From Photorhabdus laumondii subsp. laumondii (GTDB lineage Bacteria > Pseudomonadota > Gammaproteobacteria > Enterobacterales > Enterobacteriaceae): DNA of 64,000 nucleotides. The notes below the pieces were generated by a model. It made no database searches, had not been told where the DNA came from, and worked only from the letters and a program-made list of their open reading frames with translations. Shown piece by piece: positions 12,918-37,353 of this stretch. The DNA lies in contig NZ_CP024901.1 in NCBI RefSeq assembly GCF_003343245.1, forward strand, positions 5,580,001 to 5,644,000, written 5' to 3'. Every line of letters starts with the position of its first letter. Position 1 is the first letter of the stretch. The translations under genes were made by a program, and so were the position numbers.

Positions 12918-13923
12918 TTATATTTTAATTAAGCAAGAGACTATACCAAAAGACTTTTTTATCTTATTTATTTTTGTTTATACATTCCTGTTATTAGTAA
13001 TAAACACATACAACCGAATAGCAGCGTCATTTCTTTTCTTCTGTTTTCTTATATTTTTATCTATATATTTTCCATTAAATGGCCCAGACAAAGGATCGTA
13101 TCAAGAAATTTTTGGACATCTGAAATCTTTTTCTGATGTTTTTCAATATTTTAATACTGTCGACTCCCCTGTTTATTATTTCTTTAATATTCTCACACAA
13201 AAAATAGGGATAAATACTTATCTTTTTTTTGCCATTCAAAATATTTTAATAACAATATCTTTAGCATATATAGCAATAAAATTAAGAAACGGAATCTATA
13301 TATCTTTATCTTTATTTTTCACTCACTTATTGGTTCCATTTTCAACAAGAATTCATTTACTCACTTTACTATGTATTTTTATTTTCATTTCTTATAAAAA
13401 CATCACACGCTATTTCGCATCAATTCTTTTATTTGGTATTCATCCTATGGGTTCTATTTTACCCTTACTAGTTTTTAACTCCGAAGATATTAGATTTAAA
13501 ATCAAGCTAAAAAATATCATTATCTTTTTTGTCATTTTTTCTACGGCGTTATGGGGATATGATTTTCTTTACTTTAAATTTGAACAATATGTATACAACA
13601 GTTCAGTGTATACAAATGAATCTTCAGGATTAGGTATTTCGTTTGTCATTAATATATATTTAGCAGTCGTTTGCTATCTCACGCTCGGTAATTACTTAAA
13701 AGGTATCGACAAAATAGTTATATTATTACCTCCATTTCTTTCTCTTTTAACTGTTTTTAGCCCAATGTTTAATCGGTTTTTATTTCCGTCTGATTTAATG
13801 ATTGTACTCTTGTTTCTTAAATATCAGAAAGAACCCAAACTATTATTTCTAATAATTTGGATATTATTATCATCACTTAGATTTTATAAGAATTTTTTAG
13901 GTAATGGAGATTATATTTTATGA
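12895..13923 (+). CDS. O-antigen polymerase candidate (Wzy, EpsG-like)
   Basis: From the ATG at 12895 it has 342 residues (an earlier in-frame TTG at 12853 would add 14). About ten hydrophobic helices are present. The periplasmic-loop region FPLNGPDKGSYQEIFGHLK, followed by SPVYYFFNILTQKIG and LFFAIQNILITISLAYI, resembles the EpsG branch of polysaccharide polymerases. It is the only many-helix protein in the operon besides Wzx, which supports the Wzy role: joining O units by block transfer in the periplasm. It overlaps both neighbours (23 bp upstream, ATGA downstream). Wzy sequences are very divergent, so this remains a position-and-topology call. Confidence 0.72.
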   Translation: MNSIYVSDYILIKQETIPKDFFILFIFVYTFLLLVINTYNRIAASFLFFCFLIFLSIYFPLNGPDKGSYQEIFGHLKSFSDVFQYFNTVDSPVYYFFNILTQKIGINTYLFFAIQNILITISLAYIAIKLRNGIYISLSLFFTHLLVPFSTRIHLLTLLCIFIFISYKNITRYFASILLFGIHPMGSILPLLVFNSEDIRFKIKLKNIIIFFVIFSTALWGYDFLYFKFEQYVYNSSVYTNESSGLGISFVINIYLAVVCYLTLGNYLKGIDKIVILLPPFLSLLTVFSPMFNRFLFPSDLMIVLLFLKYQKEPKLLFLIIWILLSSLRFYKNFLGNGDYIL

Positions 13924-14921
13924 AATTTGTTTTTGAAAAACCCAATAATCAAAGTAATACCGGAATATTTTTTTTAAAACGCTCACTTTATCATTACTCC
14001 GATAATGTACAGTATAAAAAGTTTTCTTTCATTCATTTTTTCCGTCGAAAAATTTCAAAAAAAAATGATACAAAATATATCTTTTTTCCTTTAGATTATA
14101 AATCTTTTTTTTCTAAACGTATTGATCTTATTATTTTCCCTGACGACCCACTTAGGGCGATAAAAAGCATATCAAAGGTTAGATGGAGAAACAAAAATTA
14201 TCTAAAATATTTATATCAAATTTTTAGATATTATTATATATTTTGTTTGATTTATTCTTTAAAAAACAATTTAATTTTAATAGTTTCAGATGATGATGTA
14301 AAAAGTCTTAAAAAGCGCTTTCCAAAACATAACATACAATACTTTCATCACCCTATACAAAATCAATTAATGAAAGTCGAGCCATGTATTTTTTCACACG
14401 TCATAAAGAAAGTCGCTTTTCTAAATTTACAAGATCACTATTGTAATGATCCGAAACATTTCTTTAAAGGCTTTAATAATGTGATTCTAACAAAAGAACT
14501 CAATGATATTCAGTTTTATTTTCATGGTTCTGGTCGGAAGCCTTGGATTAATACTGCATTAAATTTTTTAAATTCATCCAACTGTTTTAATGTTGATTAT
14601 ATTGAAGATTTTATAACCTTTAATAAAAATATTGATATTGTAATTATGCCATTATCTGCCGGTGCTGGAGTGAAAAATATTTTATTGAATTCTATTTACT
14701 TAAATAAGGTTGTTTTTGGTAGTGAAGAGGCTTTTTCTGGTATACCATCTAAATTAGCTAATAATTTTATAATTTCAAGTGCTAATGAATTAATGAATAA
14801 GCTACAATATCTTAATGATATTAAGAAAGACTATTTAGAATTGAGAAATTATGTACTTGAGCATCATGATATCTCAATGTTTAAATCTGATTTAAACCGT
14901 TTTTTTAATGAGTGTAATTGA
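13920..14921 (+). CDS. Putative glycosyltransferase (GT4-like)
   Basis: 333 residues. The N-terminal half is poorly conserved and basic. The C-terminal half has the GT-B donor-domain pattern: FYFHGSGRKPW, VDYIEDFITFNKNIDIVIMPL, and AGAGVKNILLNSIYLNKVVFG, equivalent to the G-x-G-x-K-N-x-L-E segment of GT4 enzymes with Asn in place of the second Glu. A glycine-serine rich FSGIPSK segment follows. It starts inside the stop of the Wzy gene and overlaps the first codons of the GT11 relic. It may add one O-unit sugar; donor unknown. Confidence 0.68.
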   Translation: MKFVFEKPNNQSNTGIFFLKRSLYHYSDNVQYKKFSFIHFFRRKISKKNDTKYIFFPLDYKSFFSKRIDLIIFPDDPLRAIKSISKVRWRNKNYLKYLYQIFRYYYIFCLIYSLKNNLILIVSDDDVKSLKKRFPKHNIQYFHHPIQNQLMKVEPCIFSHVIKKVAFLNLQDHYCNDPKHFFKGFNNVILTKELNDIQFYFHGSGRKPWINTALNFLNSSNCFNVDYIEDFITFNKNIDIVIMPLSAGAGVKNILLNSIYLNKVVFGSEEAFSGIPSKLANNFIISSANELMNKLQYLNDIKKDYLELRNYVLEHHDISMFKSDLNRFFNECN

Positions 14922-15470
14922 CGGTGGTTTGGGAAATCAACTCTTTCAATTAGCTTGAACTATTTATTTAAAAATAAAATATAACATTGATACAAAAATA
15001 GAATTATCTTTTTTAAAGATAAAAAAACAGCATAATAATGTAGATTACAGAAAAATATTCAGGGAAGAAAATTTGCCAACTTCTAAATATGAGAAAAACT
15101 TGCTTCTATTATTTGACAGATATCAAGGAAAGGTATTCAAAACTTTGATTCGCTCATTTAACATAATAAGTTTCCGAGACTATTTACTATATAATTATAA
15201 CGCTGATATGGATTTTAACTTTAACATAGTTGAATCACTTAAAAAATGTAAATATTAGATTGGCTATTTTCAAAATGGGGTACTTCATAAAATAAATAGC
15301 TTTGATTTTTATCTTAAAAAGATTGGAGTTCATATATATTATCCAGAAGTATCTTTGGCTGGAGGGTTGCATTCTTGAGTGATAATTTTTGTAATAAAAA
15401 AATTGTATTGCCCAGGCATAATGCCCAGTTTATGTCAAAAAAAGTAACGATAAAATTAGGTGGTTTTACC
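14908..15470 (+). pseudogene. Decayed GT11 alpha-1,2-fucosyltransferase-like gene
   Basis: From the ATG at 14908 the frame reads SVIDGGLGNQLFQLA, the hallmark N-terminus of family 11 fucosyltransferases, and then stops at 14956. The same frame continues open past that stop, stops again at 15256, resumes with IGYFQNG (the GYFQ/GYWQ motif of GT11) and stops at 15376. The HxRRGDY donor motif and much of the middle are missing. The last piece, KKIVLPRHN near 15400, may be a frame-shifted remnant of the C-terminus. Three in-frame stops and a deletion make it inactive. Loss of a fucose branch is inferred. Confidence 0.8.
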
Positions 15471-15473
15471 AGT

Positions 15474-16223
15474 ATGTCTAGATTTTTTACTATATTAATG
15501 TGTGTGAATCGTGATGATGGTTTCCTAGATGAAGCAATTAATAGTATTCTGAATCAGACATATCACAACTTTGAATTTATTATCGTAGCTAATAATTGTA
15601 CTGATAAACTTTGGAATAGTTTGCAAGACTATAATGATGATAGAATTAAATGTTATAGAACAAATATAGGACAGCTTTCTTTTAATTTAAATTATGGTTT
15701 AAATATATCTACTGGTGAATATATAGTTAGAATGGACGCTGACGATATATCATTATCTGATAGGTTAGAAAATTTAAATTTACAAATAGATAAAAATAAT
15801 AAACCGGATGTTATAGGAACTTCAGTTTTATTTATTGATGAAAACTCTACCGTTTTAAATAAATACACACCACCAATGAAAAAATTTATCCAAACAATTC
15901 CATTTAAAAATATTTTTGTTCACCCTACAGTAGCAATTAAAAGAGCTACTTTAATTAAAGAAAAAGGATACTTAGGAGGATTTCAATCTGAAGATTATGA
16001 TCTCTGGATAAGACTATTACGGAATAAGAAATATCACCTATGCAATGTGGATATTGTCACATTGAAATATAGAATATCTGTTAATCAATCAAGAGGCTCT
16101 AGATTACCATATGCAGAAAGTGCTTCATATTGTTTACGGGAGTTTCTTTTAAGACCAAGGCTTATCTGGTTACTGGGGTTCATGATTAGCTCATTGAAAG
16201 TTTTTATTCTACCAAAAAAGTGA
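15474..16223 (+). CDS. Glycosyltransferase family 2
   Basis: 249 residues from the ATG at 15474, preceded by an aggtgg ribosome site. A longer frame from 15375 would add 33 residues that look like the tail of the GT11 relic. The GT2 domain is clear: FTILMCVNRDDGFLDEAINSIL at the N-terminus, IVRMDADD (DXD near residue 88-90, metal and nucleotide-sugar binding) and SEDYDLWIRL (the ED acceptor-side motif). Single domain with a short hydrophobic C-terminal stretch. It sits 9 bp before the next GT gene and likely adds an O-unit residue. Confidence 0.85.
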   Translation: MSRFFTILMCVNRDDGFLDEAINSILNQTYHNFEFIIVANNCTDKLWNSLQDYNDDRIKCYRTNIGQLSFNLNYGLNISTGEYIVRMDADDISLSDRLENLNLQIDKNNKPDVIGTSVLFIDENSTVLNKYTPPMKKFIQTIPFKNIFVHPTVAIKRATLIKEKGYLGGFQSEDYDLWIRLLRNKKYHLCNVDIVTLKYRISVNQSRGSRLPYAESASYCLREFLLRPRLIWLLGFMISSLKVFILPKK

Positions 16224-17421: not shown

Positions 17422-18035
17422 CAGAGAGAAGGGATGATTTATGGCAACATCTCAGAATTACCAGAAAACCCTATCGCAAACGCTATAGTCGCTATGAAAG
17501 AAGAGGCAAAATTAAAGACCGGGTCAATATTGATGAACGCCCTGAATTCGTTGATAAAAAATAACATATTAGTGACCGGAAAGAGAATACGATAATAAGA
17601 AAAGATAAAAAAATGTATTATTAACACTCATTGACTGCAAAACGCTGTATACAATTATCGTTAAACTTGATAGCAAGTGAGCATCAGAAGTAGTAAAAAT
17701 GGTAGTGAAAGTATTATACCCGTTAAAATCAGGGAGTAAGACCATCGCATTCGATAACGGTTTGGAGTTCGAAGACCATGAAATCATCAGTGAAAAAAAT
17801 TAGAAACACAAATTTACCTTGCTCACCCTTACTCACCTTGGGAAAAAGGGATCAATGAGAATATTAATGTGTTAATTAGACAATACTTTCCAAAGGAAAC
17901 CGATTTTAATAAAGTCTCTGATCAGGAAATAAACTTTGTGGCAAACTGATTAAATTATCGCCCCCAAAAAACTTAAGGAGGGAAAACACCGAATAAATTA
18001 TTTGAGGGAATACGAACATGTTTACCTCCAGATTA
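17422..18035 (+). mobile_element. IS30-family transposase relic, C-terminal half (copy 1)
   Basis: In shifting frames the translation reads DLWQHLRITRKPYRKRYSRY, then DRVNIDERPEFVDK, a DNGLEF block (the second catalytic Asp), AHPYSPW, a GINENIN segment with the third acidic residue, and QEINFVAN. These are the ordered landmarks of the IS30 DDE domain. The 5' half of the transposase is absent and several frameshifts and stops interrupt it. A second, longer relic of the same family lies at 22313-23270 in the same orientation. Confidence 0.85.
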
Positions 18036-18049
18036 ACGATATTGCACTT

Positions 18050-18184
18050 ATTTTATGTGAATCTACTGGTTATTATTATTGGAATCGCGGGATATTCATG
18101 TGTAAATCATCTCGCTTTTAAGAAAAATTATCATATCATTGGCGTGATGAAATTGCTAAAGAGCGAATCCTGCTAAATCGATAA
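18050..18184 (+). pseudogene. Possible scrap of mannose-1-phosphate guanylyltransferase (manC-like)
   Basis: One frame reads STGYYYWNRGIFMCKSSRF, then a stop at 18119, then EKLSYHWRDEIAKERI before another stop at 18182. The YYWNxGIFxxK pattern resembles the conserved ManC/CpsB segment preceding its LEEL helix. Only about 45 codons survive. It lies between the IS30 relic and hddA. With the gmd scrap and the GT11 relic it would complete a set of GDP-mannose/GDP-fucose relics. The assignment rests on a short motif and is tentative. Confidence 0.4.
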
Positions 18185-18218: not shown

Positions 18219-19247
18219 GTGAAAATTAGAAGTAGAGCGCCGCTAAGGTTAGGTATTGCCGGGGGAGGTACGGATGTTTCACCATATAGTGATGAGTTTG
18301 GCGGCTGTGTACTGAATGCCACAATCAACATGTATGCACATGCGTTTATAGATGATGATATCAAAGGCAACCAAGTTATTTTTGAAGCGAAAGATCTTGG
18401 AATAATAGATATCATTGAGTTAGATAATGACGTCTCTTTAGATGGAAATTTGGTACTTCATCGAGCTGTATATAAGCGCATTATGGAACAATATAACAAG
18501 GGCAAGTATATACCTCTAAGACTGACTACACAGTCGGATGCACCTCCAGGCAGTGGCTTGGGTTCTTCATCCACCATGGTAGTTGCTATGCTTGAAGGAT
18601 TCCGTCAACTGCTTTCCCTACCACTGGGGGAATATGATATCGCTCAACTTGCATACGAAATAGAAAGACGAGACTGTAAACTATCTGGTGGTAAGCAAGA
18701 CCAGTATGCAGCTACTTTTGGTGGCTTTAACTTTATAGAATTTTATGCAAATGATCGCGTTATCGTAAACCCTCTGAGAATGCGTCGCTATATTATTAGT
18801 GAGCTAGAATCTTCATTAATTTTGTTTTTTACTGGCACTTCAAGAGATTCTGCAAAGATAATCGACGACCAGATCAAATCTATTAAGAAAGATAACGGAG
18901 CTCGATTAGATGCAATGCACAAAGTGAAAGAATCTGCATACAAAATTAAAGAACTACTTTTTAAAGCAGATATCCTTGGTGTAGCGCAGGAGTTTCGCAA
19001 TGCGTGGGAGTCAAAGAAAGCGACATCCCCATCAATTTCTAATGCTTTAATCGATGCTGTTGAATCCTCAATTCTTAATGCAGGAGCCATCTCAATGAAG
19101 ATCTCTGGCGCGGGCGGTGGTGGATTTATGATGATATTTGTTGAGCCCGAAAATAAACTCGATGTCATTAAAGCATTGGAGCAATTTGACGGACATGTGC
19201 ATAAATTCCAATTTACTAATGAAGGAGCCTACTCATGGACAATTTAG
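18219..19247 (+). CDS. hddA: D-glycero-alpha-D-manno-heptose-7-phosphate kinase
   Basis: 342 residues of the GHMP kinase superfamily. It opens with RSRAPLRLGIAGGGTDVSPY, has the ATP-binding DAPPGSGLGSSSTMVVA loop near residue 110 and the C-terminal MKISGAGGGGFMM motif. HddA phosphorylates D,D-heptose 7-phosphate at C1 with alpha configuration, feeding GDP-heptose rather than the ADP-heptose of the LPS core. It heads a four-gene block with gmhA, hddC and gmhB, and its end overlaps gmhA by 13 bp. Together with those neighbours the assignment is firm. Confidence 0.93.
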   Translation: MKIRSRAPLRLGIAGGGTDVSPYSDEFGGCVLNATINMYAHAFIDDDIKGNQVIFEAKDLGIIDIIELDNDVSLDGNLVLHRAVYKRIMEQYNKGKYIPLRLTTQSDAPPGSGLGSSSTMVVAMLEGFRQLLSLPLGEYDIAQLAYEIERRDCKLSGGKQDQYAATFGGFNFIEFYANDRVIVNPLRMRRYIISELESSLILFFTGTSRDSAKIIDDQIKSIKKDNGARLDAMHKVKESAYKIKELLFKADILGVAQEFRNAWESKKATSPSISNALIDAVESSILNAGAISMKISGAGGGGFMMIFVEPENKLDVIKALEQFDGHVHKFQFTNEGAYSWTI

Positions 19248-19825
19248 ATTACATTAATACTTACCTATTAAATTCGATTAAAGTAAAACAAAAGTTAGCT
19301 GATGATATAGTAACCTTAAAAGCCATTTCTGATGTTGCTAATCTAATAGTTGATGCTTACACAAAAAATAATAAAGTTTTACTCGCAGGAAATGGTGGTA
19401 GTGCTGCCGACTCTCAGCATATTGCCGCAGAATTTGTGAGTCGCTTCTTTTATGATCGACCAGGATTACCTGCAATTGCAATGACTACCGACTCATCCAT
19501 GTTAACTGCTATCGGCAACGATTATGGATTTGATAAACTGTTTGCCCGCCAACTACAGGCTCAAAGCAGACTAGGTGATATTTTTATTGGCATTAGTACT
19601 TCGGGCAACTCTCTGAATATAATAAAAGCTATTGAAGTTGCAAAAGAAGAAGGTGTTACTTCTGTAGTCTTATGTGGCTCAGGCGGAAAACTAAAAGATT
19701 TGGCAGATATAGCAATTTGCGTACCTGATTCTGTAACACCATATATTCAAGAATGCCATATTTGTATTGGTCATATGATTTGCGCCATTGTAGAAGCAAA
19801 AATTTTTCCTAAAGAGAAATTATAA
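19235..19825 (+). CDS. gmhA: Sedoheptulose-7-phosphate isomerase (GDP-heptose pathway copy)
   Basis: 196 residues, one SIS domain. AGNGGSAADSQHIAAEFVSRF near residue 50-70 and ISTSGNSLNIIKA are the phosphosugar-binding loops; the C-terminal QECHICIGHMICAIVE carries conserved metal/active-site residues. It isomerises sedoheptulose 7-phosphate to D-glycero-D-manno-heptose 7-phosphate, the shared first step for ADP- and GDP-heptose. Being in the hddA block, this is probably the dedicated O-antigen copy; another copy for the core would be expected elsewhere in the genome. Confidence 0.93.
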   Translation: MDNLDYINTYLLNSIKVKQKLADDIVTLKAISDVANLIVDAYTKNNKVLLAGNGGSAADSQHIAAEFVSRFFYDRPGLPAIAMTTDSSMLTAIGNDYGFDKLFARQLQAQSRLGDIFIGISTSGNSLNIIKAIEVAKEEGVTSVVLCGSGGKLKDLADIAICVPDSVTPYIQECHICIGHMICAIVEAKIFPKEKL

Positions 19826-19828
19826 ATT

Positions 19829-20506
19829 ATGTTTGAGGCGATAATTTTAGCCGGTGGGCAAGGGGCTCGATTAAAAGCCGTAACTGGTGATTTACCTAAG
19901 CCTATGGTAGATATAAATGGTAAACCTTTCCTTTATCGCTTAATGAAAAGGCTTGAAGAGCAAGGTTGTTCAAAAATAGTTCTTTCTCTCTGCTATCAAG
20001 CTGATTACATTATTGGATGCATACAAAAAGACCAACCAGTATCATGTGAAGTTGATTTCGTCATAGAAGAAACTCCTTTAGGTACTGGAGGAGCAATTAA
20101 GCTTGCTAGCTCAAAAATAAATTCATCCAAATTTTTAGTTTTGAATGGCGATACCATGTCAGAAATTAATTATAATTCAATAATTAATTTTTCGAATGAT
20201 GCAGATTTAGTTATAAGTGGTGTATATATAGACGATGTTTCACGTTATGGAACTTTGAAATTAGATGAATACAATAATGTTTTAGCTATGCTAGAAAAAG
20301 GACTAACTGGTAAAGGTATTATAAATAGTGGTATCTATTTAATTAAAAAAGATTTAATAAGAAATTTTCCTTTAGAAAAATTTTCTTTCGAAAATGATTT
20401 CATCAAAAACTTTAACGGTATTTTTAAGGCATTTGTGTCTAATGGTTACTTTATTGATATAGGAATTCCAGAGGATTATTATAAAGCATGCAACACAATA
20501 AAATAA
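19829..20506 (+). CDS. hddC: D-glycero-alpha-D-manno-heptose 1-phosphate guanylyltransferase
   Basis: 225 residues of the sugar nucleotidyltransferase fold, starting FEAIILAGGQGARLKAVTGD with the pyrophosphorylase loop GGQGARL and the KPMVDINGKPF block, then LVLNGDTMSEI (metal-binding Asp) and FIDIGIPEDY near the end. It makes GDP-D-glycero-alpha-D-manno-heptose from GTP and the 1-phosphate left after GmhB. It begins 3 bp after gmhA and overlaps gmhB by 19 bp. Confidence 0.92.
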   Translation: MFEAIILAGGQGARLKAVTGDLPKPMVDINGKPFLYRLMKRLEEQGCSKIVLSLCYQADYIIGCIQKDQPVSCEVDFVIEETPLGTGGAIKLASSKINSSKFLVLNGDTMSEINYNSIINFSNDADLVISGVYIDDVSRYGTLKLDEYNNVLAMLEKGLTGKGIINSGIYLIKKDLIRNFPLEKFSFENDFIKNFNGIFKAFVSNGYFIDIGIPEDYYKACNTIK

Positions 20507-21039
20507 AAGTTGCTTTTTTAGATAGAGATGGAGTTATTAATAAGGAGGTCAACTATCTGCATAAGATTGAAGATTTTGAATATACTTCTAAATGTATAGT
20601 TGGGCTAAAAAAAATTCGTGATTTAGGATATGAAATTATCATCATTACTAATCAGGCTGGAATTGCTCGCGGCTATTATTCTGAGAAACAATATCAATTA
20701 TTAACTGATTGGTATAGAAATGATTTAAAAGAAAAAGGAGTTGATATTTTAGATATATTCCATTGTCCTCATTACCCTGATGGTATTGTCCCAGAGTTAT
20801 CAAAGGATTGTTATTGTAGAAAACCTTCACCTGGTATGATAGAGCAAGCTAGAAAAAAATATTCCATCGATATCAAAAGCTCTATATTAGTAGGTGATAA
20901 AAACTCTGATATACATGCTGGAGAACGTGCCGGAATTCCTCGATGTTTTTTAGTAAAAACTGGACATCCAACATCTGAGCCGACTGAGAATGCAATCCTT
21001 TCAAACAATTTGTTTACGATATCTAAATTAATTGAGTAA
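20488..21039 (+). CDS. gmhB: D-glycero-alpha-D-manno-heptose-1,7-bisphosphate 7-phosphatase
   Basis: 183 residues, HAD superfamily. The nucleophile motif is FLDRDGVIN (about residues 10-18), motif II ITNQAGIARG, and the catalytic end LVGDKNSDIHAG. The zinc-binding insert CPHYPDG...CYCRKPSPGM, typical of GmhB, is complete. It removes the 7-phosphate to leave the 1-phosphate used by HddC. It overlaps hddC, so the four genes form one translationally coupled block. The IS110 relic begins directly after its stop. Confidence 0.93.
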   Translation: MQHNKIKVAFLDRDGVINKEVNYLHKIEDFEYTSKCIVGLKKIRDLGYEIIIITNQAGIARGYYSEKQYQLLTDWYRNDLKEKGVDILDIFHCPHYPDGIVPELSKDCYCRKPSPGMIEQARKKYSIDIKSSILVGDKNSDIHAGERAGIPRCFLVKTGHPTSEPTENAILSNNLFTISKLIE

Positions 21040-22312: not shown

Positions 22313-23270
22313 ATGGCCTATAAAAAACTGGTCAAAGCAGGAAGATACCAGATTTCCAGTTAAAAAAACGGTTTTTCACGACGTTTCACTGCTCAATCAC
22401 TCAATCGAAGCCTATCAACCATTAGCAGGGAGTTGAAAAGAAATCAAGAAATAAAAGAATATTGCCCGGAGCAAGCCCATCTTCAGGGGCTTTCTCGCCG
22501 TCATTCTACCAAGAAATCCACAAAAATGATCAAAGAAATAAAAAAATGGATAAAGCGGCTAATCTTGCAAGATTTCAATTCTGAACAGGCGGTTGACTAT
22601 TTCAGAAAGTATAAAGGGACATCCTTATATCATGAGACCATTTATAGATTGACTTATAAAGACAAAATGGATGGAGGTGACTTATGGCAGCATCTCAGAA
22701 TTACCATTAAATCGTATCGTAAACGATACGGCCGTTATGAAAGAAGAGGAAAAATTAAAAAAAGTCAGTATTAATGAACCCCCAGAAGTCGTTGATAAAC
22801 AAGCTCGGATTGGTGACTGGGAAGGTGATACAATAATTAGAAAAGATAAAAAAGTGTATTATTAACGCTGATTGAACGTAAAACGCTCTATATAATCATT
22901 TTCAAACTGAATAAAAAACAAGCATCAAAAGTAACGGAAGCCACCGTGAAAGCTTTATAGCCATTTAAAGCAAAGGGTTAAAACAATGATGTTTGATAAC
23001 GGTTTAGAATTTGGGAGTCATAAAATGATTAGTGAATAGTTAGATACAACGATTTACTTTTCCAATCTTTATACTCCTCGGGAGAAAGAGAAATAAATGA
23101 AAATATAAATAAGCTAATTCAGACAATATTTTCCAAAAGGGATAAACTTTAATAAAATCTCTGAACGAGAGATAAGATTTATCATAAACAGATCAAATAA
23201 TCACTCCCGAAAGACTAGTGGTGGCAAAACTCCAAATAAACTATTTAAAGGGATACGAACTTATTTAATC
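22313..23270 (+). mobile_element. IS30-family transposase relic, longer copy (copy 2)
   Basis: Starting MAYKKLVKAGRYQIS at 22313, in changing frames it gives the N-terminal helix-turn-helix (LNRSLSTISRELKRN), then YCPEQAHLQ, DLWQHLRI, RIGDWEGDTII (first catalytic Asp region), a DNGLEF block, and a final KTPNKLFKGIRT. It is interrupted by several stops and frameshifts. Copy 1 at 17422-18035 matches its C-terminal half in the same orientation, so the heptose genes are flanked by directly oriented IS30 relics. Confidence 0.85.
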
Positions 23271-23310
23271 TAAACTTAATTATTTCACACTTAATTTATA
23301 GGTAGCACAA

Positions 23311-24483
23311 GTGATTGTTATTGCTGGGAAAAATAACATTGCAGTTCATGTTCTAAATTTATTAAAAATTAAATATAATATAAAAAACTTAGCAGTTGTA
23401 ATTAATAAGACAGACTCAGGCAATAATACCTGGCAATATTCTCTTAAAAAAAGAGCAAATGAAATCAATGTACCTATTATTTCACTAGAAGAAGCAGAAA
23501 GAAATGCTTCTATCTTCTTATCTCTAGAATTTGATCAACTTATTAAAATTGGAAGATTCAGAACTAAGAAGATATTTAATATTCATTTTTCTCTACTGCC
23601 AAAATACAAAGGGATGTATACATCCATATGGCCAATATTGAATAATGAGATTTCTACTGGCGTTAGTTTACATTATATAGACAATGGAATAGATACAGGT
23701 GAAATAATTGACCAAACAACTATTAATATAGATGAAAGGTATACATCAAAGGATATTTATTTAAACTATATTTCTCATTCCTGCACTTTAATTGAAGATT
23801 ATATAGAAAAAATAATAAAAAATAATAATATTTTTAGCAACCCTCAAAAATCAAAGCATTCATCTTACTATTCTAAAAATACAATTTCTTTTTCATCAGA
23901 AAGCATTAATTTACATAAAACAGCATGGGAAATAGGTAGATATATAAGAGCATTCTCTTTTAGAGAATATCAATTACCTCACTATCAAAATACTAATTAC
24001 TGCAATTATGAAATAACATCAATACGTTCTTCTGGTAGACCAGGAGCTCTCATTAAAGATAATGAAAATTTTTCTGAATTCTCAACTATTGATTATAATA
24101 TAATACTATATAAGGATAAGATTGATTTATTATTTGATTTTTGTAAAAAAAACAATCTTTCTGAAATAAAGAAATATATTAAAAACATATCTGGAATTGA
24201 TGAACGTAACCAGCATACTTGGTCATTGTTGATGGTAGCCTCTTATCATGGTTATTTAGGCATAGTAAAATATCTGATAGATTCTGGCGCTAATGTTAAT
24301 GCTACTAACTATAAAGGAACTTCAGTTCTAATGTATGCAAAAGAATATGCTTTAAAAAATGGGGATACTAGAATAATAAAGCTATTGATAGAAAAAGGTG
24401 CAAATATATTAACAAAAGACATGCATTATAAATGTCTTGTTGAATACTTGACTGAAGACGAAAGATTAAAAGTTGGTATATAA
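23311..24483 (+). CDS. Sugar N-formyltransferase with C-terminal ankyrin repeats (QdtF-like)
   Basis: 390 residues from a GTG start. The N-terminal formyltransferase domain has FNIHFSLLPKYKG (Asn90 and His92) and DNGIDTGEIID (Asp128), the Asn-His-Asp catalytic set that uses N10-formyltetrahydrofolate. A middle domain covers about 170-265. Residues about 270-375 form ankyrin repeats: HTWSLLMVASYHGYLGIVKYL, DSGANVNATNYKGTSVLMYA, IIKLLIEKGANI. This architecture is known from QdtF of Providencia alcalifaciens, which formylates dTDP-Qui3N. With rmlA, the 3,4-ketoisomerase and the 3-aminotransferase it completes a dTDP-3-formamido sugar pathway, although it is 15 kb from them. Confidence 0.88.
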   Translation: MIVIAGKNNIAVHVLNLLKIKYNIKNLAVVINKTDSGNNTWQYSLKKRANEINVPIISLEEAERNASIFLSLEFDQLIKIGRFRTKKIFNIHFSLLPKYKGMYTSIWPILNNEISTGVSLHYIDNGIDTGEIIDQTTINIDERYTSKDIYLNYISHSCTLIEDYIEKIIKNNNIFSNPQKSKHSSYYSKNTISFSSESINLHKTAWEIGRYIRAFSFREYQLPHYQNTNYCNYEITSIRSSGRPGALIKDNENFSEFSTIDYNIILYKDKIDLLFDFCKKNNLSEIKKYIKNISGIDERNQHTWSLLMVASYHGYLGIVKYLIDSGANVNATNYKGTSVLMYAKEYALKNGDTRIIKLLIEKGANILTKDMHYKCLVEYLTEDERLKVGI

Positions 24484-24489
24484 TATACT

Positions 24490-24664
24490 ATGCTAAGCAC
24501 AGTCTTATTTGAACCTGAAATCCTCCCTAACACCAGTAATATTATTCTCCTTTGTGATAATACTAGATTTCGGCTATATCTGTTTTAACGCTAAATTTTA
24601 CTTGGGATGATAAGAGACTATATTGGATAGGTTAGATTATCATGAACTTACAAATAACTAATAA
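24490..24664 (+). pseudogene. trmL relic (5' part)
   Basis: From the ATG at 24490 the DNA aligns base by base with the start of intact trmL at 27216 for about 170 bp: LSTVLFEPEILPNTSNIILL against [20 protein letters not shown]. It then stops at 24586, and weaker matching continues to about 24664. The rest of the gene is missing; galE starts 20 bp later. It begins only 6 bp after the stop of the formyltransferase gene, so it marks the right-hand junction between the O-antigen cluster and a former trmL copy. Confidence 0.85.
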
Positions 24665-24683
24665 AGTGCACAAGAATATTTAA

Positions 24684-25706
24684 ATGCCAATCCTAATCAC
24701 CGGCGGAGCCGGCTACATCGGTTCACACACAGTATTAACGCTTCTGGAACGAGGAGCTGATGTTGTTGTTATTGATAACCTTTGCAATTCATCACCAGAA
24801 TCTCTTCGTAGAGTTGAGAAACTTACTGGTAAATCAGTGAAGTTTTATCAAGGTGATATCCTCAATTTGGATTTATTGCATAAAATTTTCCAGGAAAATA
24901 AAATTGAAACCGTTATTCATTTTGCCGGATTAAAAGCAGTCGGCGAATCCACTAGAAAACCACTTGAATATTATCAGAACAATGTTACTGGCACCCTAGT
25001 TCTGTTGCAGGCTATGCGTGCCAACAGTGTACATCAACTGATTTTCAGTTCATCCGCAACGGTTTATGGTGATCCTGAATTTGTACCACTTACTGAAAAT
25101 GCTAAAGTTGGTGGTACAACTAACCCTTATGGCACTTCTAAACTGATGGTTGAGCAAATTCTAAAAGATTTTGCCGCTGCCGAGCCAAGTTTCAAAATCA
25201 CCAGCCTGAGATATTTCAATCCTGTTGGTGCACACTCATCAGGTATGATTGGCGAAGATCCTAATGGTATTCCCAATAACCTGTTACCTTATATCACTCA
25301 GGTTGCTATTGGTCGTCTGGAATGTTTATCAGTGTATGGCAATGATTATCCAACCAAAGACGGCACCGGTATTCGTGACTATATTCATGTGATGGATTTG
25401 GCTGAAGGCCATATTGCTGCAATTGACTATCTGGATAAACAACAATCCTATGAAGTTTTTAATTTAGGAACAGGTGCTGGTTATTCTGTACTCGAACTAC
25501 TTCATGCTTTTGAAAAGGCGTCAGGTAAAGATATTCCATATAAAATTACAGATAGACGTCCTGGGGATATTGCTGAGTGTTGGTCTGATCCATCCAGAGC
25601 TCGGAATATCCTTGGTTGGCAAGCAACACGCAATATTGACGATATGATGCGTGATAGTTGGAATTGGCAAAAGAATAACCCTCATGGTTTTCGCTCAGGG
25701 AAATAA
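24684..25706 (+). CDS. galE: UDP-glucose 4-epimerase
   Basis: 340 residues, standard GalE length. The SDR motif [11 protein letters not shown] is at residues 6-16, DNLCNSS follows the second beta strand, the catalytic Ser is in FSSSATVYG and the YxxxK pair in [12 protein letters not shown] (about residues 150-154). C-terminal [16 protein letters not shown] is conserved. It interconverts UDP-Glc and UDP-Gal (possibly the GlcNAc forms) for LPS or O-antigen use. It lies between a trmL relic and an ISAs1 relic, outside the gal operon, so it is probably a polysaccharide-locus copy. Confidence 0.93.
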
Positions 25707-25764
25707 CGCTAAAAGCCTTTTTACGATTGACTTAGCAACTACTCGATTACTCACAATCCTAGTC

Positions 25765-26100
25765 AGAATAGCAAATAACTATGAGCTGGCAGATATTCTG
25801 CCGTTAACAATTGTGACGTTATTGTGGCACCAAAGGCTGGGAAGAAATTGAAGGTTTTGGTGTTGAGCAGTCGAGGATTGTTAAAGCAATACGGTAAATT
25901 TGAACAGGGTATTACAACCCATGACACCATAGTCCATATGGTTAGCTGTATCAGCACCAAGCTGTTTCAAAAGTATTTCATTAAATGGATGAATATTTGC
26001 CGTGAACTGATGAAAAGCTCAGGGAGTGCCACAGATGGAAAAACCGTCAGGCGCTCCCAATTCGGCGCAACAATTCAGCGGAATTACTATCTCGGATAAA
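25765..26100 (+). mobile_element. ISAs1-family transposase relic (N-terminal part)
   Basis: In at least three frames the translation reads LADILPLTIVTLL, a GWEEIEGFGVEQSR segment, LLKQYGKFEQGITTHDTI, then VSCISTKLFQKYFIKWM and TDGKTVRRS. These are the ordered N-terminal blocks of ISAs1-type transposases (the H-repeat protein family). The catalytic C-terminal part is absent. The following 200 bp up to the methyltransferase gene (26101-26318) hold no recognisable feature. Confidence 0.75.
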
Positions 26101-26318
26101 ACATATTGCAGTGAATATACTGAATAATACAAAAATATTTAAGATAAGATAGACACGAAAGCAACGATGAGTACAGCCTATCTATCTGAAATTCTTGCTA
26201 AGCAAGCCCTCCCGTAATCTTTTCCTAAAATACCATCATTAAAAAATAATCTATCACTAGACCATAATAATTCACTATAAAAGTATTATTAAAATAATTA
26301 GTCTATTGGTCCTTTTTT

Positions 26319-27017
26319 ATGAAAACAGAGAACTCAAGAGAGCTACTCAATGATGTAATAGAGTGGGATATAGGTAATTGGAGTCATGCGTTAAAATATT
26401 GGCAGGACCATTCTAATCTAGAATTAAAGTCAGCTAATATTCTAGAACTAGGAAGCCGAAATGGTGGATTATCACTGTGGGCAGCATTAAATGGAGGTAA
26501 TGTTTTATGTACGGATCTAAATGGCCCTACTTCAAAGGCTCAGGAGAAACATAAGCGCTATAATATAGAAAGCAGTATTCGATATGGTAAATTAAGTGCA
26601 TTAGACATTAAATATAAGAACCATTTTGATATCGTTATGTTTAAATCAGTATTAGGCGGTATCGGTTATAATTCAAATAAATCTGCACAAAAAAAGGCAA
26701 TTAATCAGATTTTTCATTCATTAAAAAAAGGGGGGGAGTTTTGGTTTGCAGAAAATTTGGTTGCATCGCCATTGCATCAGTTTCTCAGAAAAAATTATGT
26801 TAATTGGGGAAATGCCTGGGGCTATGTTACCGTCAATGAAATGGTCGAGTATCTGTCTGCATTTTCAAATATTAATTATACAACTTTAGGTTTCCTTGCT
26901 ACGTTTGGCAGGAATGAATCTCAAAGAAAATTTTTAGGAATGTTAGATAATAAAGTTCTAAATAAGGTCGTTCCTAAACATTGGCACTATATTATCATCG
27001 GTGTGGCAAAAAAGTAA
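26319..27017 (+). CDS. Class I SAM-dependent methyltransferase, copy 1
   Basis: 232 residues. The SAM-binding motif I is ILELGSRNGGLSLWAALNG (about residues 41-59), followed by the acidic LCTDLNGP and the post-motif FDIVMFKSVLGGIG and LKKGGEFWFAENL. The C-terminus after residue 160 (FLRKNYVNWGNAWGYVT) is unusual and probably substrate-specific. I do not recognise the substrate. A close paralogue lies at 28272, in the same orientation and with similar upstream DNA, so the two arose by tandem duplication. It is isolated, with relics on both sides. Confidence 0.8.
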   Translation: MKTENSRELLNDVIEWDIGNWSHALKYWQDHSNLELKSANILELGSRNGGLSLWAALNGGNVLCTDLNGPTSKAQEKHKRYNIESSIRYGKLSALDIKYKNHFDIVMFKSVLGGIGYNSNKSAQKKAINQIFHSLKKGGEFWFAENLVASPLHQFLRKNYVNWGNAWGYVTVNEMVEYLSAFSNINYTTLGFLATFGRNESQRKFLGMLDNKVLNKVVPKHWHYIIIGVAKK

Positions 27018-27054
27018 TCCAGAGAGTCTCTAAAAAATTTAGTCTGTTAGGTTA

Positions 27055-27097
27055 TATCCAGTGATGTTTTTTCATTTTTAAGTTTACTGACAATACA
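27055..27097 (-). pseudogene. cysE relic (3' end fragment)
   Basis: The plus strand here matches the plus strand of intact cysE at about 29251-29305 at roughly four of five positions, almost all differences being transitions, with the shared blocks tatcca, gttta and gacaatac. Read on the minus strand it gives LACIVSKLKNEKTSLD against PARIVGKPESEKPSLD of CysE. It lies 38 bp after methyltransferase copy 1, as intact cysE lies downstream of copy 2. Confidence 0.75.
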
Positions 27098-27215
27098 AGC
27101 GAGTCCCCCCAACAAGGAAAGATCTTCTAATAGATAAATAAGAATATCGATGAAGATCCCCCTGCATCCCCTCCTGATTTCTGCTAATCTGTGCCCCTTG
27201 TTTCTGGGGGGCTTT

Positions 27216-27704
27216 ATGCTAAACATCGTCTTATTTGAACCTGAAATCCCACCGAATACCGGTAATATTATTCGCCTTTGTGCTAATACCGGATTTCAAT
27301 TGCATCTGATTCAGCCCCTAGGTTTTACCTGGGATGACAAAAGGCTACGTCGAGCCGGGCTGGATTACCATGAGTTTGCCAATATTAAGCAACATCATGA
27401 TTATTTTGCTTTTTTAGAGAATGAAGGATTAACAGGAGCATCTTCTGCTCGTTTGTTTGCTCTCACAACAAAAGGAACTCCGGCACATAGTGCTGTAAGT
27501 TATCAAGCAGGCGATTATTTGATGTTTGGGCCGGAAACCAGAGGGTTACCACCTTATGTATTGGATAATATGCCACCACAACAAAAAATTCGTATCCCAA
27601 TGCTAGCAAACAGTCGCAGTATGAATCTTTCCAATTCAGTGGCTGTTGTTGTTTTTGAAGCCTGGCGGCAACTAGATTATCAGGGCGCTATCATCAGAGA
27701 ATAG
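27216..27704 (+). CDS. trmL: tRNA (cytidine(34)-2'-O)-methyltransferase
   Basis: 162 residues from the ATG at 27216, whose [22 protein letters not shown] is the conserved SPOUT N-terminus; a longer frame from 27150 adds unlikely residues. The SAM-binding trefoil-knot blocks [11 protein letters not shown] and [23 protein letters not shown] are complete. TrmL methylates the 2'-O of the wobble base in tRNA-Leu isoacceptors. In E. coli it neighbours cysE; here a methyltransferase gene and an ERIC element separate them. A relic of its 5' end is at 24490. Confidence 0.95.
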
Positions 27705-28271
27705 TGTGCCAATAATGCCTAATATCGCTACACATTCCTGCAATGGTTCAATGTGTTATTGACCATATCACGGTAATTTTTTCTTCTTTGCGTGGGTCAC
27801 AGCAATGCAGTTTAGGAACCGCTCTGCACCAGACCCACGATGAGAATCAGATAACCATTTTGTCATGTTCTCGGATGAAGCATGGTACGGCCACGATGGT
27901 TATCAGCTCTGTACTCCCATATCGCATTCGACCAAAGATGGGCAAAAGCAACAGGTTTTGGCAATGTAAGTGACCGAATGTCCATGATGTGTCGTTAGGA
28001 AAACAGTAAGACATCAAGGGCATAGTTTTTTCCTGGATTTTCTGAATAAGTTTTGCGCTAAATCATCATTCATTACAGGACGTAGGTGCTATGATTAGTA
28101 TAACCTAACCCTATTGGGGAATTTTTTCTCTTTGAAAATTGATTCATATAACTTATATCGGGGTTGATTCCCTCAAATGATCTACTATTTGATAAAACTA
28201 TTTAGATCATAATAATTTAATAAAGTTAGTATTAAAATAACTCATTTTCATTGATATATATTGGTTACACT
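27705..28271 (+). other. Intergenic region with unidentified gene debris
   Basis: This 567-bp stretch between trmL and methyltransferase copy 2 has no convincing gene. Around 27740-27980 short frames (for example MFSDEAWYGHDGYQLC) look like transposase debris but match no family I can name. The last 120 bp (28150-28271) resembles the DNA upstream of methyltransferase copy 1, including the common cataataatt and tattaaaataa blocks, and probably carries the promoter of copy 2. Confidence 0.45.
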
Positions 28272-28970
28272 ATGAAAGCAAAAAATTCAAAAGAATTTCT
28301 CCATGATGTCATAGAATGGGATATATATAATTGGAGTCATTCGTTAAAATATTGGCAAGATCATTCTGGATTAGAATTAAAGTCAGCTAATATTCTAGAG
28401 CTAGGTAGTCGAAATGGTGGGTTATCATTATGGGCAGCATTGAATGGAGCAAATGTCTTATGTACTGATTTAGATGGCCCTACGCCAAAAGCACTGGAGA
28501 AACATAAGCGTTATAATATAGAAAAGAGCATTCAGTATGATAAATTAAACGCATCGGATATTAAATATAAGAACCATTTTGATATTGTTATGTTTAAATC
28601 AGTATTAGGTGCTGTCGGTTATAATTTCAATAAAACAGCACAAAAAGAGGCTATTAATCAAATCTTTTATTCATTAAAGGAAGGAGGTGAACTTTGGTTT
28701 GCAGAAAATCTGGTTGCATCACCATTGCATAAATTCCTCAGGAAAAATTATGTTAATTGGGGAAATACTTGGGGCTATGTTACCACCAAGGAAATGACAG
28801 AGTATTTATCAGCATTTTCAGATGTTAATTATACAACATTAGGCTTCCTTGCTACGCTTGGTAGGAATGAATTTCAAAGAAAATTTTTAGGGGTGTTAGA
28901 TAATAAAGTTCTAAATAAAGTCATTCCTAAGCATTGGCACTATATTATAATAGGTGTAGCAAAAAAATAA
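28272..28970 (+). CDS. Class I SAM-dependent methyltransferase, copy 2
   Basis: 232 residues from the ATG at 28272 (an upstream in-frame start would add 7). It is nearly identical in layout to the gene at 26319: ILELGSRNGGLSLWAALNGA motif I, LCTDLDGP, MFKSVLGAVG, LKEGGELWFAENL and the same C-terminus KHWHYIIIGVAKK. Differences are scattered conservative changes, so both copies seem to be under selection. Substrate unknown. It is followed by ERIC copy B and then by convergent cysE. Confidence 0.8.
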   Translation: MKAKNSKEFLHDVIEWDIYNWSHSLKYWQDHSGLELKSANILELGSRNGGLSLWAALNGANVLCTDLDGPTPKALEKHKRYNIEKSIQYDKLNASDIKYKNHFDIVMFKSVLGAVGYNFNKTAQKEAINQIFYSLKEGGELWFAENLVASPLHKFLRKNYVNWGNTWGYVTTKEMTEYLSAFSDVNYTTLGFLATLGRNEFQRKFLGVLDNKVLNKVIPKHWHYIIIGVAKK

Positions 28971-28974
28971 TTTA

Positions 28975-29101
28975 TATACCCGTCATCTTTCAAGTTGCCT
29001 CCTTGTTGGCTGCACTCACTCACCCCAGTCACATAGTTATCTATGCTCCCGGGGATTCGCTCCCTTGCCGCCGCGATGCATCTTGAAATCCATAGGGTAT
29101 A
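28975..29101 (-). repeat. ERIC-type intergenic repeat, copy B (reverse orientation)
   Basis: 127 bp, tatacccgtcatc to catagggtata, the reverse complement of the other copies. It lies between methyltransferase copy 2 and the end of cysE. No ERIC element is present at the matching point after methyltransferase copy 1, so it was gained at this point, or lost from the other, after the duplication. Confidence 0.9.
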
Positions 29102-29194
29102 GAAGATTTCACACGTTAAGCATGCCAGATCATATTTCCACATTCAGCATGTGAAAATATGATAGCGTTCACTAATTATCCAGATTTCGATAAA

Positions 29195-30016
29195 TTAAAT
29201 CCCATCCCCATACTCAAAGCCATGGTTGATACCATTAAAATGCTGGTTCATATCCAATGATGGCTTTTCGCTTTCAGGTTTACCGACAATACGGGCAGGC
29301 ACTCCAGCGGCTGTTGTGTGCGGTGGAACAGAGCGAAGGACAACTGAACCTGCGCCAATTTTAGCCCCACGACCAATTTCAATATTACCCAATATTTTCG
29401 AACCTGCACCAATCATCACCCCTTCCCTGACTTTCGGATGACGATCACCCCCGGTTTTACCCGTACCACCAAGGGTGACGGATTGCAGGATAGAAACGTC
29501 ATTTTCCACTACCGCCGTTTCGCCAATCACAATGCCAGTGGCGTGGTCAAGCATAATGCCACAACCAATCTTTGCTGCCGGGTGAATATCAACGCCAAAA
29601 GACATCGAGATTTGGTTTTGCAGATAAATAGCCAATGCTTTACGGTCTTCTCCCCAGATCCAATGGGCAATACGATAGGCTTGGAGAGCATGAAACCCTT
29701 TGAGGTACAGCAGAGGTGTTGAGTATTTATCTACGGCGGGATCGCGTAGACGTACCGCTATGATGTCGCGGGCAGCAGAGACAATCATTTTTTGATCCGA
29801 GCCATAAGCCTCTTCTACGATCTCTCTAACAGCAATAGCCGGCATAATCGGCGTAGCCAGCTTATTCGCCAGCATATAACTTAAAGCACTACCAAGATTT
29901 TCATGCTTGAGTAATGTTGCATGAAAAAAACTGGCCAACATCGGTTCACATTCAGCCAGTGCTCTCGCTTCTGTTTTTATGTTCTTCCAAACTTCGTCCA
30001 ATTCTTCTAGCGACAT
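29195..30016 (-). CDS. cysE: Serine O-acetyltransferase
   Basis: 273 residues from the ATG at 30016 (MSLEELDEVWKNIK); a GTG five codons upstream is possible but the ATG start matches the E. coli length. The N-terminal helical domain carries CEPMLASFFHATLLKHENLGSALSYML; the C-terminal left-handed beta helix has the hexapeptide repeats and the catalytic region HATGIVIGETAVV. It acetylates serine for cysteine synthesis and is feedback-inhibited by cysteine. gpsA and secB lie upstream on the same strand in the enterobacterial order. Two decayed relics of this gene occur in the window. Confidence 0.96.
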   Translation of the reverse strand: MSLEELDEVWKNIKTEARALAECEPMLASFFHATLLKHENLGSALSYMLANKLATPIMPAIAVREIVEEAYGSDQKMIVSAARDIIAVRLRDPAVDKYSTPLLYLKGFHALQAYRIAHWIWGEDRKALAIYLQNQISMSFGVDIHPAAKIGCGIMLDHATGIVIGETAVVENDVSILQSVTLGGTGKTGGDRHPKVREGVMIGAGSKILGNIEIGRGAKIGAGSVVLRSVPPHTTAAGVPARIVGKPESEKPSLDMNQHFNGINHGFEYGDGI

Positions 30017-30059
30017 ATTTTTTACTCTCACATTAGAACCTATCTCATTAGATTTTTAT

Positions 30060-31082
30060 TTAAGAGCGCACATTATCGCTCTCATCCTTTCTGGCTCTTC
30101 CTAATAATGCCTGAGCAGCTTCTATCACATTTTTATTGCAATAGAGTATCTGGTAGATTTGTTCTGCAATCGGCATTTCTACATTGGCGCGATTAGCCAA
30201 TGCACGTACTTCTTTGGTATTGCGATAACCTTCAACAACCTGCCCAATCTGATACTGCGCTTCTTCAACACTGATTCCCTGCCCCAGCATCATGCCAAAA
30301 CGACGGTTACGTGATTGGTTATCAGTACAAGTTAAGACCAAATCGCCCAATCCCGCCATGCCCATAAAGGTAGAAGGATCAGCACCAAGCGCTGCACCAA
30401 GGCGACTCATTTCCGCCAATCCACGAGTAATCAATGCGGTACGAGCATTAGCACCAAATCCCATGCCATCAGATATTCCCGCGCCAATGGCGATCACGTT
30501 TTTTACGGCACCACCGAGTTGAACACCAATAAAATCAGGATTTTTATAAACCCGGAAACTTTTGCCACAGTGGAATAATTGTTGAAGTCCATCGCCAAAA
30601 GCAGATTCCGTCGCGGAAATAGCAATCGCGGTAGGCAAACCAGCCGCTAACTCTTTAGCAAATGTTGGCCCAGAGAGCACCGCTAGCGGTATTTCATTGC
30701 CTAATATCTCACGGGCCACATCCTGCAATAACCGACCGGTATCCGCTTCCAAGCCTTTAGTTGCCCATACGATACGTGAATCAGGCCGTAAATGTGGTTT
30801 TATCTGCTTTAACACTTCACCAAACACATGGCTAGGTACCACAACAAGAATATCGCGGCTCGCTGTTAGTGCTTTTATTAGGTCCGTTTCAAGCAATAAA
30901 CTATCAGGAAAGGAAACATCCGGCAGAAATTTTTGATTACAACGCACCCGTTGCAATGCCCCAACATGCTCTGGATTATGCCCCCAAAGTACAACATTAT
31001 GACCATTACGAGCCAGCGTAATGGCTAATGAGGTGCCGTATGAGCCGGCACCAATCACTGTCATAGAAACAGTACTATTCAT
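30060..31082 (-). CDS. gpsA: Glycerol-3-phosphate dehydrogenase (NAD(P)+)
   Basis: 340 residues. [19 protein letters not shown] is the NAD-binding loop, followed by [16 protein letters not shown] and the catalytic Lys in [37 protein letters not shown] is conserved. It makes sn-glycerol 3-phosphate for phospholipid synthesis in the cytoplasm. The start codon shares a base with the secB stop, and cysE follows 43 bp downstream, the E. coli arrangement. Confidence 0.96.
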
Positions 31083-31558
31083 TAAGCTTCCTGTTCAGTT
31101 TGTTCACCACCCTGAGACTGTTCTGCCTGCTGTTGCAGGTAGTTCATGAATAGGGCGTCAAAGTTTACTGGAGCCAGATTCAGCTGTGGGAAGGTACCAC
31201 GGCTGACCAAGCTAGTGATGCACTCACGAGCATACGGGAACAGGATATTCGGACAATATGCCCCCAAGCAGTGAGCTAACTGAGTTCCTTCAATACCGTC
31301 AATAGAGAAAATACCCCCTTGCTGTACTTCACACAGGAATGCCGTCTCTTCTCCCAAAGCTGCGGTCACAGTCACACGCAGAACAACTTCATAAACCCCT
31401 TGAGCCAACTCACTGGAAGCGGTATCCAGATCCAGTTTTACTTCCGGCTGCCATTCCTGCTGAAACACTTGCGGTGCGTTCGGTGCTTCAAAAGAGATAT
31501 CTTTGGTGTAGATACGTTGGATCTGGAAAGCCATTTCTGTATTGCTTTGTTCTGACAT
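31082..31558 (-). CDS. secB: Protein-export chaperone SecB
   Basis: 158 residues, the standard length. [20 protein letters not shown] is the conserved N-terminus, and [20 protein letters not shown] and [16 protein letters not shown] are typical of the SecB core. The tail is Gln- and Glu-rich. SecB is a cytosolic tetramer that keeps preproteins unfolded and hands them to SecA. It is the first of secB-gpsA-cysE and overlaps gpsA by one base. Confidence 0.97.
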
Positions 31559-32299: not shown

Positions 32300-32426
32300 T
32301 ATACCCTATGGATTTCAAGATGCATCGCGGCGGCAAGGGAGCGAATCCCCGGGAGCATAGATAACGATGTGACCGGGGTGAGTGAGTGCAGCCAACAAAG
32401 AAGCAACTTGAAAGATGACGGGTATA
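32300..32426 (+). repeat. ERIC-type intergenic repeat, copy C
   Basis: 127 bp from tataccctatgg to gacgggtata, with a few differences from the other copies (ataacgatgt and agtgagtgc in the core). It is followed directly by a duplicated right half. Confidence 0.9.
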
Positions 32427-37226: not shown

Positions 37227-37353
37227 TATACCCTATGGATTTCAAGATGCATCGCGGCGGCAAAGGAGTGAATCCCCGGGAGCATAGATAACTATGTGAC
37301 CGGGGTGAGCGAGTGCAGCCAACAAAGAGGCAACTTGAAAGATGACGGGTATA
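37227..37353 (+). repeat. ERIC-type intergenic repeat, copy D
   Basis: 127 bp with the same ends and core as the other copies. It lies between the convergent ends of ppyS and tdh, about 90 bp after the ppyS stop and 70 bp from the tdh stop, so it could fold in either transcript's 3' region. Confidence 0.9.

Follow-up and report, generated by a model that had tools for sequence, protein, structure and literature searches.

The window analysed here is a stretch of 64,000 nucleotides from Photorhabdus laumondii subsp. laumondii (contig NZ_CP024901.1, positions 5,580,001 to 5,644,000) that contains the right-hand border of a cpxA-secB O-antigen cluster. Both flanks of the cluster are present: CpxA is matched with 788 bits (cut-off 486) at 5566655-5568022 of the genome, about 12 kb left of the window, and gpsA and secB form the right flank at 30060-31558 on the minus strand (secB at 31082-31558; NF000939 and TIGR00809 above cut-off). 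The last cluster gene on this side (23311-24483, plus strand) encodes a QdtF-like sugar N-formyltransferase with C-terminal ankyrin repeats, according to Pfam matches for both parts; residues 2-386 of its 390 align with the TDP-3-aminoquinovose N-formyltransferase 4xcz (E 7.6e-89) and with 5uij (E 3.1e-95). Six bp behind its stop lies a 5′ relic of trmL (24489-24664, plus strand, ATG at 24490) and, after a further 19 bp, galE (24684-25706, plus strand), a UDP-glucose 4-epimerase gene by TIGR01179 (above cut-off) and by synteny. Then follow an ISAs1/H-repeat insertion sequence (IS) relic at 25707-26257 (ends approximate), the gene of an S-adenosylmethionine (SAM) methyltransferase, MT1 (26319-27017, plus strand), a 3′ relic of cysE (27050-27116, minus strand; hereafter cysE′), intact trmL (27216-27704, plus strand; NF007683 above cut-off), a second SAM-methyltransferase gene, MT2, in the trmL-cysE gap (28272-28970, plus strand; PF08241 above cut-off, as for MT1) and intact cysE (29195-30031, minus strand; NF008349 and TIGR01172 above cut-off). 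At least two rearrangements have probably left their scars at this border: a tandem duplication long ago and a cassette exchange.

Relics and the duplication joint

An earlier note on this DNA, made from the letters alone, had described a duplicated trmL-methyltransferase-cysE block. The similarities it named are above background: self-alignment recovered the trmL relic, the cysE relic and the methyltransferase (MT) pair with its upstream DNA. The trmL relic (24489-24620) is 79% identical to intact trmL (27215-27347) over 133 columns (E 4e-27, self-BLAST) and, aligned with relatives, extends to about 24664 (73.7% over 175 columns). Read in frame, it retains about the first 58 codons with several stops, and it lacks the roughly 100 bp that are conserved upstream of trmL and that precede the intact gene at 27117-27215 (plus strand, from the alignment). 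The cysE relic matches cysE at 27050-27096 with 81% identity over 48 columns (E 2e-6, self-BLAST). It is real, but the 43 bp first assigned to it were too short: aligned with the cysE 3′ ends of four relatives, it ends at 27116. Between 27116 and 27117 the cysE 3′ end directly abuts the conserved trmL upstream DNA, with no filler in an alignment of six such joints, the cysE 3′ ends of four genomes and the trmL upstream regions of three. MT1 and MT2 are 83.4% identical over 771 columns, including 61-69 bp upstream (self-BLAST), and the homology to MT2 starts at 26258; the proteins are 84.5% identical.

Distribution in the genus

The locus was compared in 12 Photorhabdus genomes, which were searched and mapped, and in P. 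akhurstii as a thirteenth; P. heterorhabditis is left out here. Single-copy and duplicated states were both found by this comparison, which the earlier note had proposed. The order MT1-cysE′-trmL-MT2-cysE is present in six genomes, namely the window's genome, P. caribbeanensis, P. luminescens, P. namnaonensis, P. noenieputensis and P. akhurstii. CRCIA-P01 (G001) and P. bodei (G005) have trmL-MT-cysE, and the remaining five (P. asymbiotica, P. australis, P. thracensis, G006 and G010) have trmL-cysE without an MT match in between. The cysE′/trmL joint occurs together with MT1 in all six two-MT genomes (5 of the 12 and P. akhurstii). Because of this co-occurrence, the joint, MT1 and the cysE relic are most simply derived from a tandem duplication of trmL-MT-cysE′. 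A novel joint that fuses the end of the unit to its start is thus seen in six genomes, and the unduplicated state is seen in relatives, with galE-trmL-MT-cysE in CRCIA-P01. The relics do not follow the order of the unit, since the trmL relic lies left of galE, outside its expected place. The cysE relic by itself is short, which is what could be said for chance similarity or an assembly artefact. Given E-values of 4e-27 and 2e-6 and the same joint in six genomes, this explanation is already refuted and its probability negligible; the relic sits at one common place in every two-MT genome, and the similarity is therefore not due to chance.

Age and predicted function of the methyltransferases

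Within a genome, the synonymous divergence (dS) between MT1 and MT2 averages 0.56 (6 pairs). Comparisons between the six species give 0.24 for MT1 and 0.17 for MT2 (15 pairs each). This difference argues that the duplication is old and that the pair predates these species. All 14 MT copies of the two-MT and single-MT genomes are open, among them MT1 in 6 of 6 two-MT genomes, and the ratio of nonsynonymous to synonymous divergence (dN/dS) is low, 0.10 (0.097) for MT1 and 0.15 for MT2. Both copies have therefore been kept; their open frames and low dN/dS support this part of the earlier note's reading.

A dS far above the species divergence of 0.17-0.24 would also be expected if MT1-cysE′ were a diverged allele, imported by O-antigen exchange and fused to the trmL upstream DNA of the recipient. 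The locus does exchange DNA, as described below, and G010 and G006 contain broken MT-like sequences to the left of trmL, at distances of 13 and 23 kb. However, MT1 and MT2 of the same six species each form one group in the best tree, with low supports (65/0 and 53/99), which again places the pair before the species, and MT1 without MT2 was found in none of the 12 genomes. An import of this kind is therefore quite improbable, and we retain the tandem duplication.

MT1 and MT2 match general SAM-methyltransferase families and, weakly, three solved methyltransferases in the PDB. In the two loci examined, relatives with about 55% identity in other Photorhabdus are located near tail-fibre, glycosyltransferase or sulfatase-family genes; those in P. 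thracensis and P. asymbiotica (L085, L082) lie near phage tail-fibre genes. In Xenorhabdus, glycosyltransferase genes in xenorhabdicin loci, which modify lipopolysaccharide (LPS), have been proposed to give self-resistance (PMC13280938). Our best guess is that MT1 and MT2 methylate a sugar of the O-antigen or LPS. They are a conserved pair of putative enzymes through which the surface sugars of these bacteria may be varied.

The DNA left of trmL

In 10 of the 12 genomes a whole galE precedes trmL or MT1 at a distance of 0.1-0.8 kb, and it is also the left neighbour in P. akhurstii. In P. bodei the contig ends before galE would be reached, and in G006 a 5′-truncated galE lies 1.9 kb left of trmL. 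G006 (L068) has two galE, a full one at 8424-9427 and the truncated one beside trmL at 14737-15582 (oriented coordinates). The order galE-trmL-cysE is found in G002, G003, G010 and G011 and, with the truncated galE, in G006. Genomes without the duplication have the gene order galE-spacer-trmL. The earlier note had regarded galE as peculiar to the first set, which it is not, and had supposed that it landed in spare DNA left by the duplication, which this gene order does not support.

From a tandem duplication one would expect a first copy of trmL between galE and MT1; an H-repeat-type transposase relic is found at this junction instead. NF033564 (ISAs1-like) matches 25824-26096 with 49 bits, below its cut-off of 70, and residues 35-116 and 318-359 of the E. 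coli H-repeat protein YhhI match the gap with E 1e-17 and 1e-10 (tblastn), the middle part of the transposase being missing. The 42-residue C-terminal piece had no NCBIfam match; nonetheless, YhhI matched both ends. The ISAs1 relic that the earlier note had placed in the first set is thus confirmed. A homologous galE-MT1 gap is present in 5 of the 12 genomes, all of them two-MT genomes, and in P. akhurstii. Within the window's genome the gap DNA matches only itself, and within the genus only this locus; neither an intact copy of the IS nor a target-site duplication was established. An H-repeat-type IS probably took part in the rearrangement.

DNA at the galE side is exchanged between species. 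In a tree of the downstream flank genes P. bodei is the sister of the window's genome (100/99) and CRCIA-P01 comes next (92/92), which means that the two single-MT genomes fall among the two-MT genomes; their single-MT state may be secondary. The galE-trmL spacer of P. bodei is 96, 93 and 91% identical to that of G010 over 245, 154 and 74 bp, respectively, and the adjacent trmL 87%. For CRCIA-P01 the corresponding values with G010 are 94 and 92% (466 and 201 bp) and 87% for trmL; its spacer identities are 94 and 85% with G003 and 94 and 79% with G006. Comparison of these sequences suggests that a replacement of the galE side probably extended to trmL and would thereby have eliminated MT1-cysE′ as well, or the excess in the spacer may stem from selection on it. 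Further to the left the DNA is a mosaic. Of 66 genome pairs, 17 have any DNA in common within 7.3 kb left of galE (E 1e-10; P. bodei left out and G006 represented by its full galE), and the distribution of the common blocks often disagrees with kinship. P. luminescens has 3.7 kb in common, at 84% identity, with G010, which belongs to another clade of the flank tree, and this block ends 10 bp before galE.

Origin of the trmL relic

The trmL relic was found only in the window's genome and in P. namnaonensis (G008), thus in 2 of 13, between the qdtF-like gene and galE; the search covered the whole genomes of the 12 Photorhabdus and the 20.7-kb locus of P. akhurstii. A close qdtF is likewise present in only these two of 392 genomes (best four or fewer candidates per genome). 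In our reading, a cassette exchange left the trmL relic as a scar of its own: if the donor had the arrangement qdtF-trmL, such a relic would remain. The nearest distant qdtF match (43%, in G364) was considered as a donor and rejected, with trmL, cysE and gpsA absent from the 19.9 kb around the match. The best 5 of 18 matches of 24400-25000 in a plasmid collection comprise two galE, an unannotated match in a Pasteurella record and two Proteus records of 4.1 Mb (relic part only).

The earlier note had instead derived everything from a single tandem duplication, in which the trmL relic would be the first copy and galE and the IS would have been inserted before MT1 later. Against this stands that galE adjoins trmL in genomes without the duplication, that the galE-MT1 gap of five genomes contains no trmL piece at E 0.05, that the relic lacks the upstream DNA contained in the duplicated unit, and that it occurs in 2 of 13 genomes, the cysE relic in six. 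On the other hand, galE-side DNA has been exchanged between species, hence galE could have moved, and several observations favour the single event or otherwise weigh against our interpretation. The best tree nests the trmL relics within Photorhabdus (100/99), where they join the luminescens group (81/100) and indeed the six two-MT species (68/60). In the approximately unbiased (AU) test, p was 0.065 for an origin outside Photorhabdus and 0.16-0.28 for one on the thracensis/asymbiotica side. The relic is too short and decayed and the AU tests permit several origins, so that the placement in the tree fails; this phylogeny, though weak, leans to one duplication, does not settle which event lies behind the relic and does not establish a foreign origin. 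Between the window's genome and G008 the relics share 83% identity and the galE-MT1 gaps a similar 87%, and the two scars may thus be of similar age. An intact qdtF-trmL junction was found in none of the 392 genomes, again among the best four or fewer candidates per genome. With G011, the spacer of CRCIA-P01 is 88.4% and trmL 86.9% identical, an excess far smaller than with G010. The supports in the MT tree are low, and two alternative placements were not rejected (AU p 0.38 and 0.46). Finally, the galE tree groups the full galE of G006 with the luminescens group (86/92), which argues that galE itself moves; such mobility would likewise be required if galE had arrived late.

Taken together, we consider a single duplication unlikely, though less so than the imported allele, and prefer a real, layered border scar. 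The head-to-tail joint in six genomes and the decay of the cysE fragment uphold the duplication proposed before; that the trmL relic is part of it is not supported, and a single event with late arrival of galE is less likely. According to the preferred model, an ancestor of the luminescens group of Photorhabdus would have had galE-spacer-trmL-MT-cysE. About 2.1 kb, from about 100 bp upstream of trmL to about 116 bp inside the cysE 3′ end, would have been duplicated in tandem, which would have placed MT1-cysE′ ahead of trmL-MT2-cysE. Afterwards the first trmL copy and the old spacer would have been lost, probably with the involvement of the H-repeat-type IS, and both MTs would have been retained. 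In a second event, the left part of the cluster would have been exchanged between species, usually with galE as its right edge; an incoming cassette ending in qdtF-trmL would have been joined before galE, and about 176 bp of its trmL would have been left as a relic. The truncated galE of G006 is a border scar of the same sort. In P. bodei and CRCIA-P01 a similar exchange that reached trmL probably took out MT1-cysE′.

Similar borders in other genera

With trmL as query, 4 of 92 genomes were found to carry a second trmL on the same contig, ahead of the intact one: 2 of 12 in Photorhabdus, 1 of 6 in genus g94, 1 of 30 in g13, 0 of 20 in g83 and 0 of 24 in g91. The E-value limits differed (1, 0.5, 0.5, 0.0001 and 0.0001, respectively), and older relics would escape such a search; one further g13 genome, 82% complete, has no good trmL match.

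In G104 (g94) an epimerase-like gene is followed by a 212-bp trmL relic (93% identical to the intact gene), an open reading frame (ORF) of 513 residues that resembles phosphoethanolamine transferases, below every NCBIfam cut-off, and intact trmL. Two of its five congeners (L150, L151) carry the DNA that precedes the relic before an intact trmL, in L150 right up to the trmL start (92% over 997 bp); the other three have no match. The arrangement in L150 and L151 is the unscarred state. In G416 (g13) an epimerase-like gene precedes a trmL pseudogene of almost full length, which has a single early stop and 89.7% identity to the intact trmL. Then come licD-, choline-kinase-, transporter- and nucleotidyltransferase-like genes and the intact trmL, whose ATG is overlapped by the last ORF of the licD-like set. 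This overlap argues that a cluster gene can indeed lead directly into trmL. Both trmL copies of G416 group together on the trmL tree, without strong support (90/48). The stretch 9231-9949 (L171) between the trmL pseudogene and the licD-like gene resembles a transposase relic. Other candidates were rejected: the contigs with the two trmL copies of G410 are identical over 18.9 kb and were taken as an assembly duplicate, and the neighbouring trmL pieces in G039, G048 and G062 each look like one broken gene.

G104 and G416 show the same plan, a cluster gene, a broken trmL, one or more decoration genes and an intact trmL. As in Photorhabdus, the inserted genes are LPS-decoration-like and cysE follows; in contrast to Photorhabdus, no MT or cysE relic was seen in either, and the inserts differ. 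This leads us to a tentative idea, which we rate as somewhat less likely than not: the O-antigen clusters of this bacterial group might grow at their right edge by additions that use the border gene as an anchor. Each decoration cassette would arrive with its own trmL (or galE), the border gene would thereby be duplicated, the older copy would decay, and a ladder of scars would record successive changes of serotype. Border scars preserve a legible history of surface-antigen loci; provided that the trmL and galE scars arose by cassette addition, they mark the incoming DNA and the order of additions, and no donor genome is needed. For annotation, pieces of trmL and cysE close to O-antigen loci should not be taken for functional genes.

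Other features of the cluster

The cpxA-secB interval contains rmlA, a WzxE-like flippase gene (below its cut-off), glycosyltransferase and aminotransferase genes, the qdtF relative and sugar-nucleotide genes. A wzy gene was not identified in the cluster; the large ORFs at 11637-12914 and 12853-13920, without Pfam or NCBIfam match, are candidates. Four genes at 18219-21039 match the D-glycero-D-manno-heptose nucleotide pathway (hddA, gmhA, hddC, gmhB), mostly below equivalog cut-offs, and are flanked by direct copies at 17435-18081 and 22678-23323 with 72% identity over about 650 bp (self-BLAST). The gap between trmL and MT2 contains a 76-codon ORF (27743-27973) without Pfam match, whose translation looks like a transposase fragment. 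Between MT2 and cysE lies a 127-bp interspersed repeat (28975-29101), presumably similar to the enterobacterial repetitive intergenic consensus. Further copies in the window are located at 4470-4596, 32300-32426, 37227-37353 and 60496-60622, and the genome has at least 50 further matches (40 of 608 candidates scored; the window's other copies left out). At this place it is an insertion: the MT2-cysE gaps of G001, G004, G005, G007, G008, G009 and P. akhurstii match only the non-repeat part.

Comparison with known O-antigen loci

The cpxA-secB O-antigen locus is known from Proteus (PMC5560731) and Morganella (PMC8649690), and in Morganella the set trmL-cysE-gpsA ends each cluster (PMC8649690). 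The locus described here is alike, with cpxA to the left and trmL-cysE-gpsA-secB to the right, and M. morganii types 10 and 11 have one gene between trmL and cysE, in the position that MT2 occupies here. The available parts of the two papers describe no trmL or cysE relics, and those of PMC8649690 mention neither remnants nor duplications. A study of Photorhabdus and Xenorhabdus gives the cpxA/cysE interval as a region of genomic plasticity, variable in each of the four genomes it compared (PMC3091717); in the part of that paper at hand the region is only listed, without mechanism or scars. Neither trmL or cysE relics nor recurrent trmL scars at this place are described in the portions available of the literature examined, which included PMC7305143, PMC10298637 and PMC8027243.

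An H-repeat remnant at a cluster junction has been described for the Salmonella O-antigen group D2 (PMC3715488), so relics of this kind at O-antigen junctions are already known. As far as the part of that paper at hand goes, the Salmonella D2 locus resembles the one described here in having an H-repeat-type relic at a rearranged O-antigen junction, and other gene remnants occur in the clusters. The difference is in the position: the D2 junction is internal to the cluster and connects segments from the clusters of two serogroups, whereas the Photorhabdus junction lies at the border by trmL, beside the joint of a tandem duplication.

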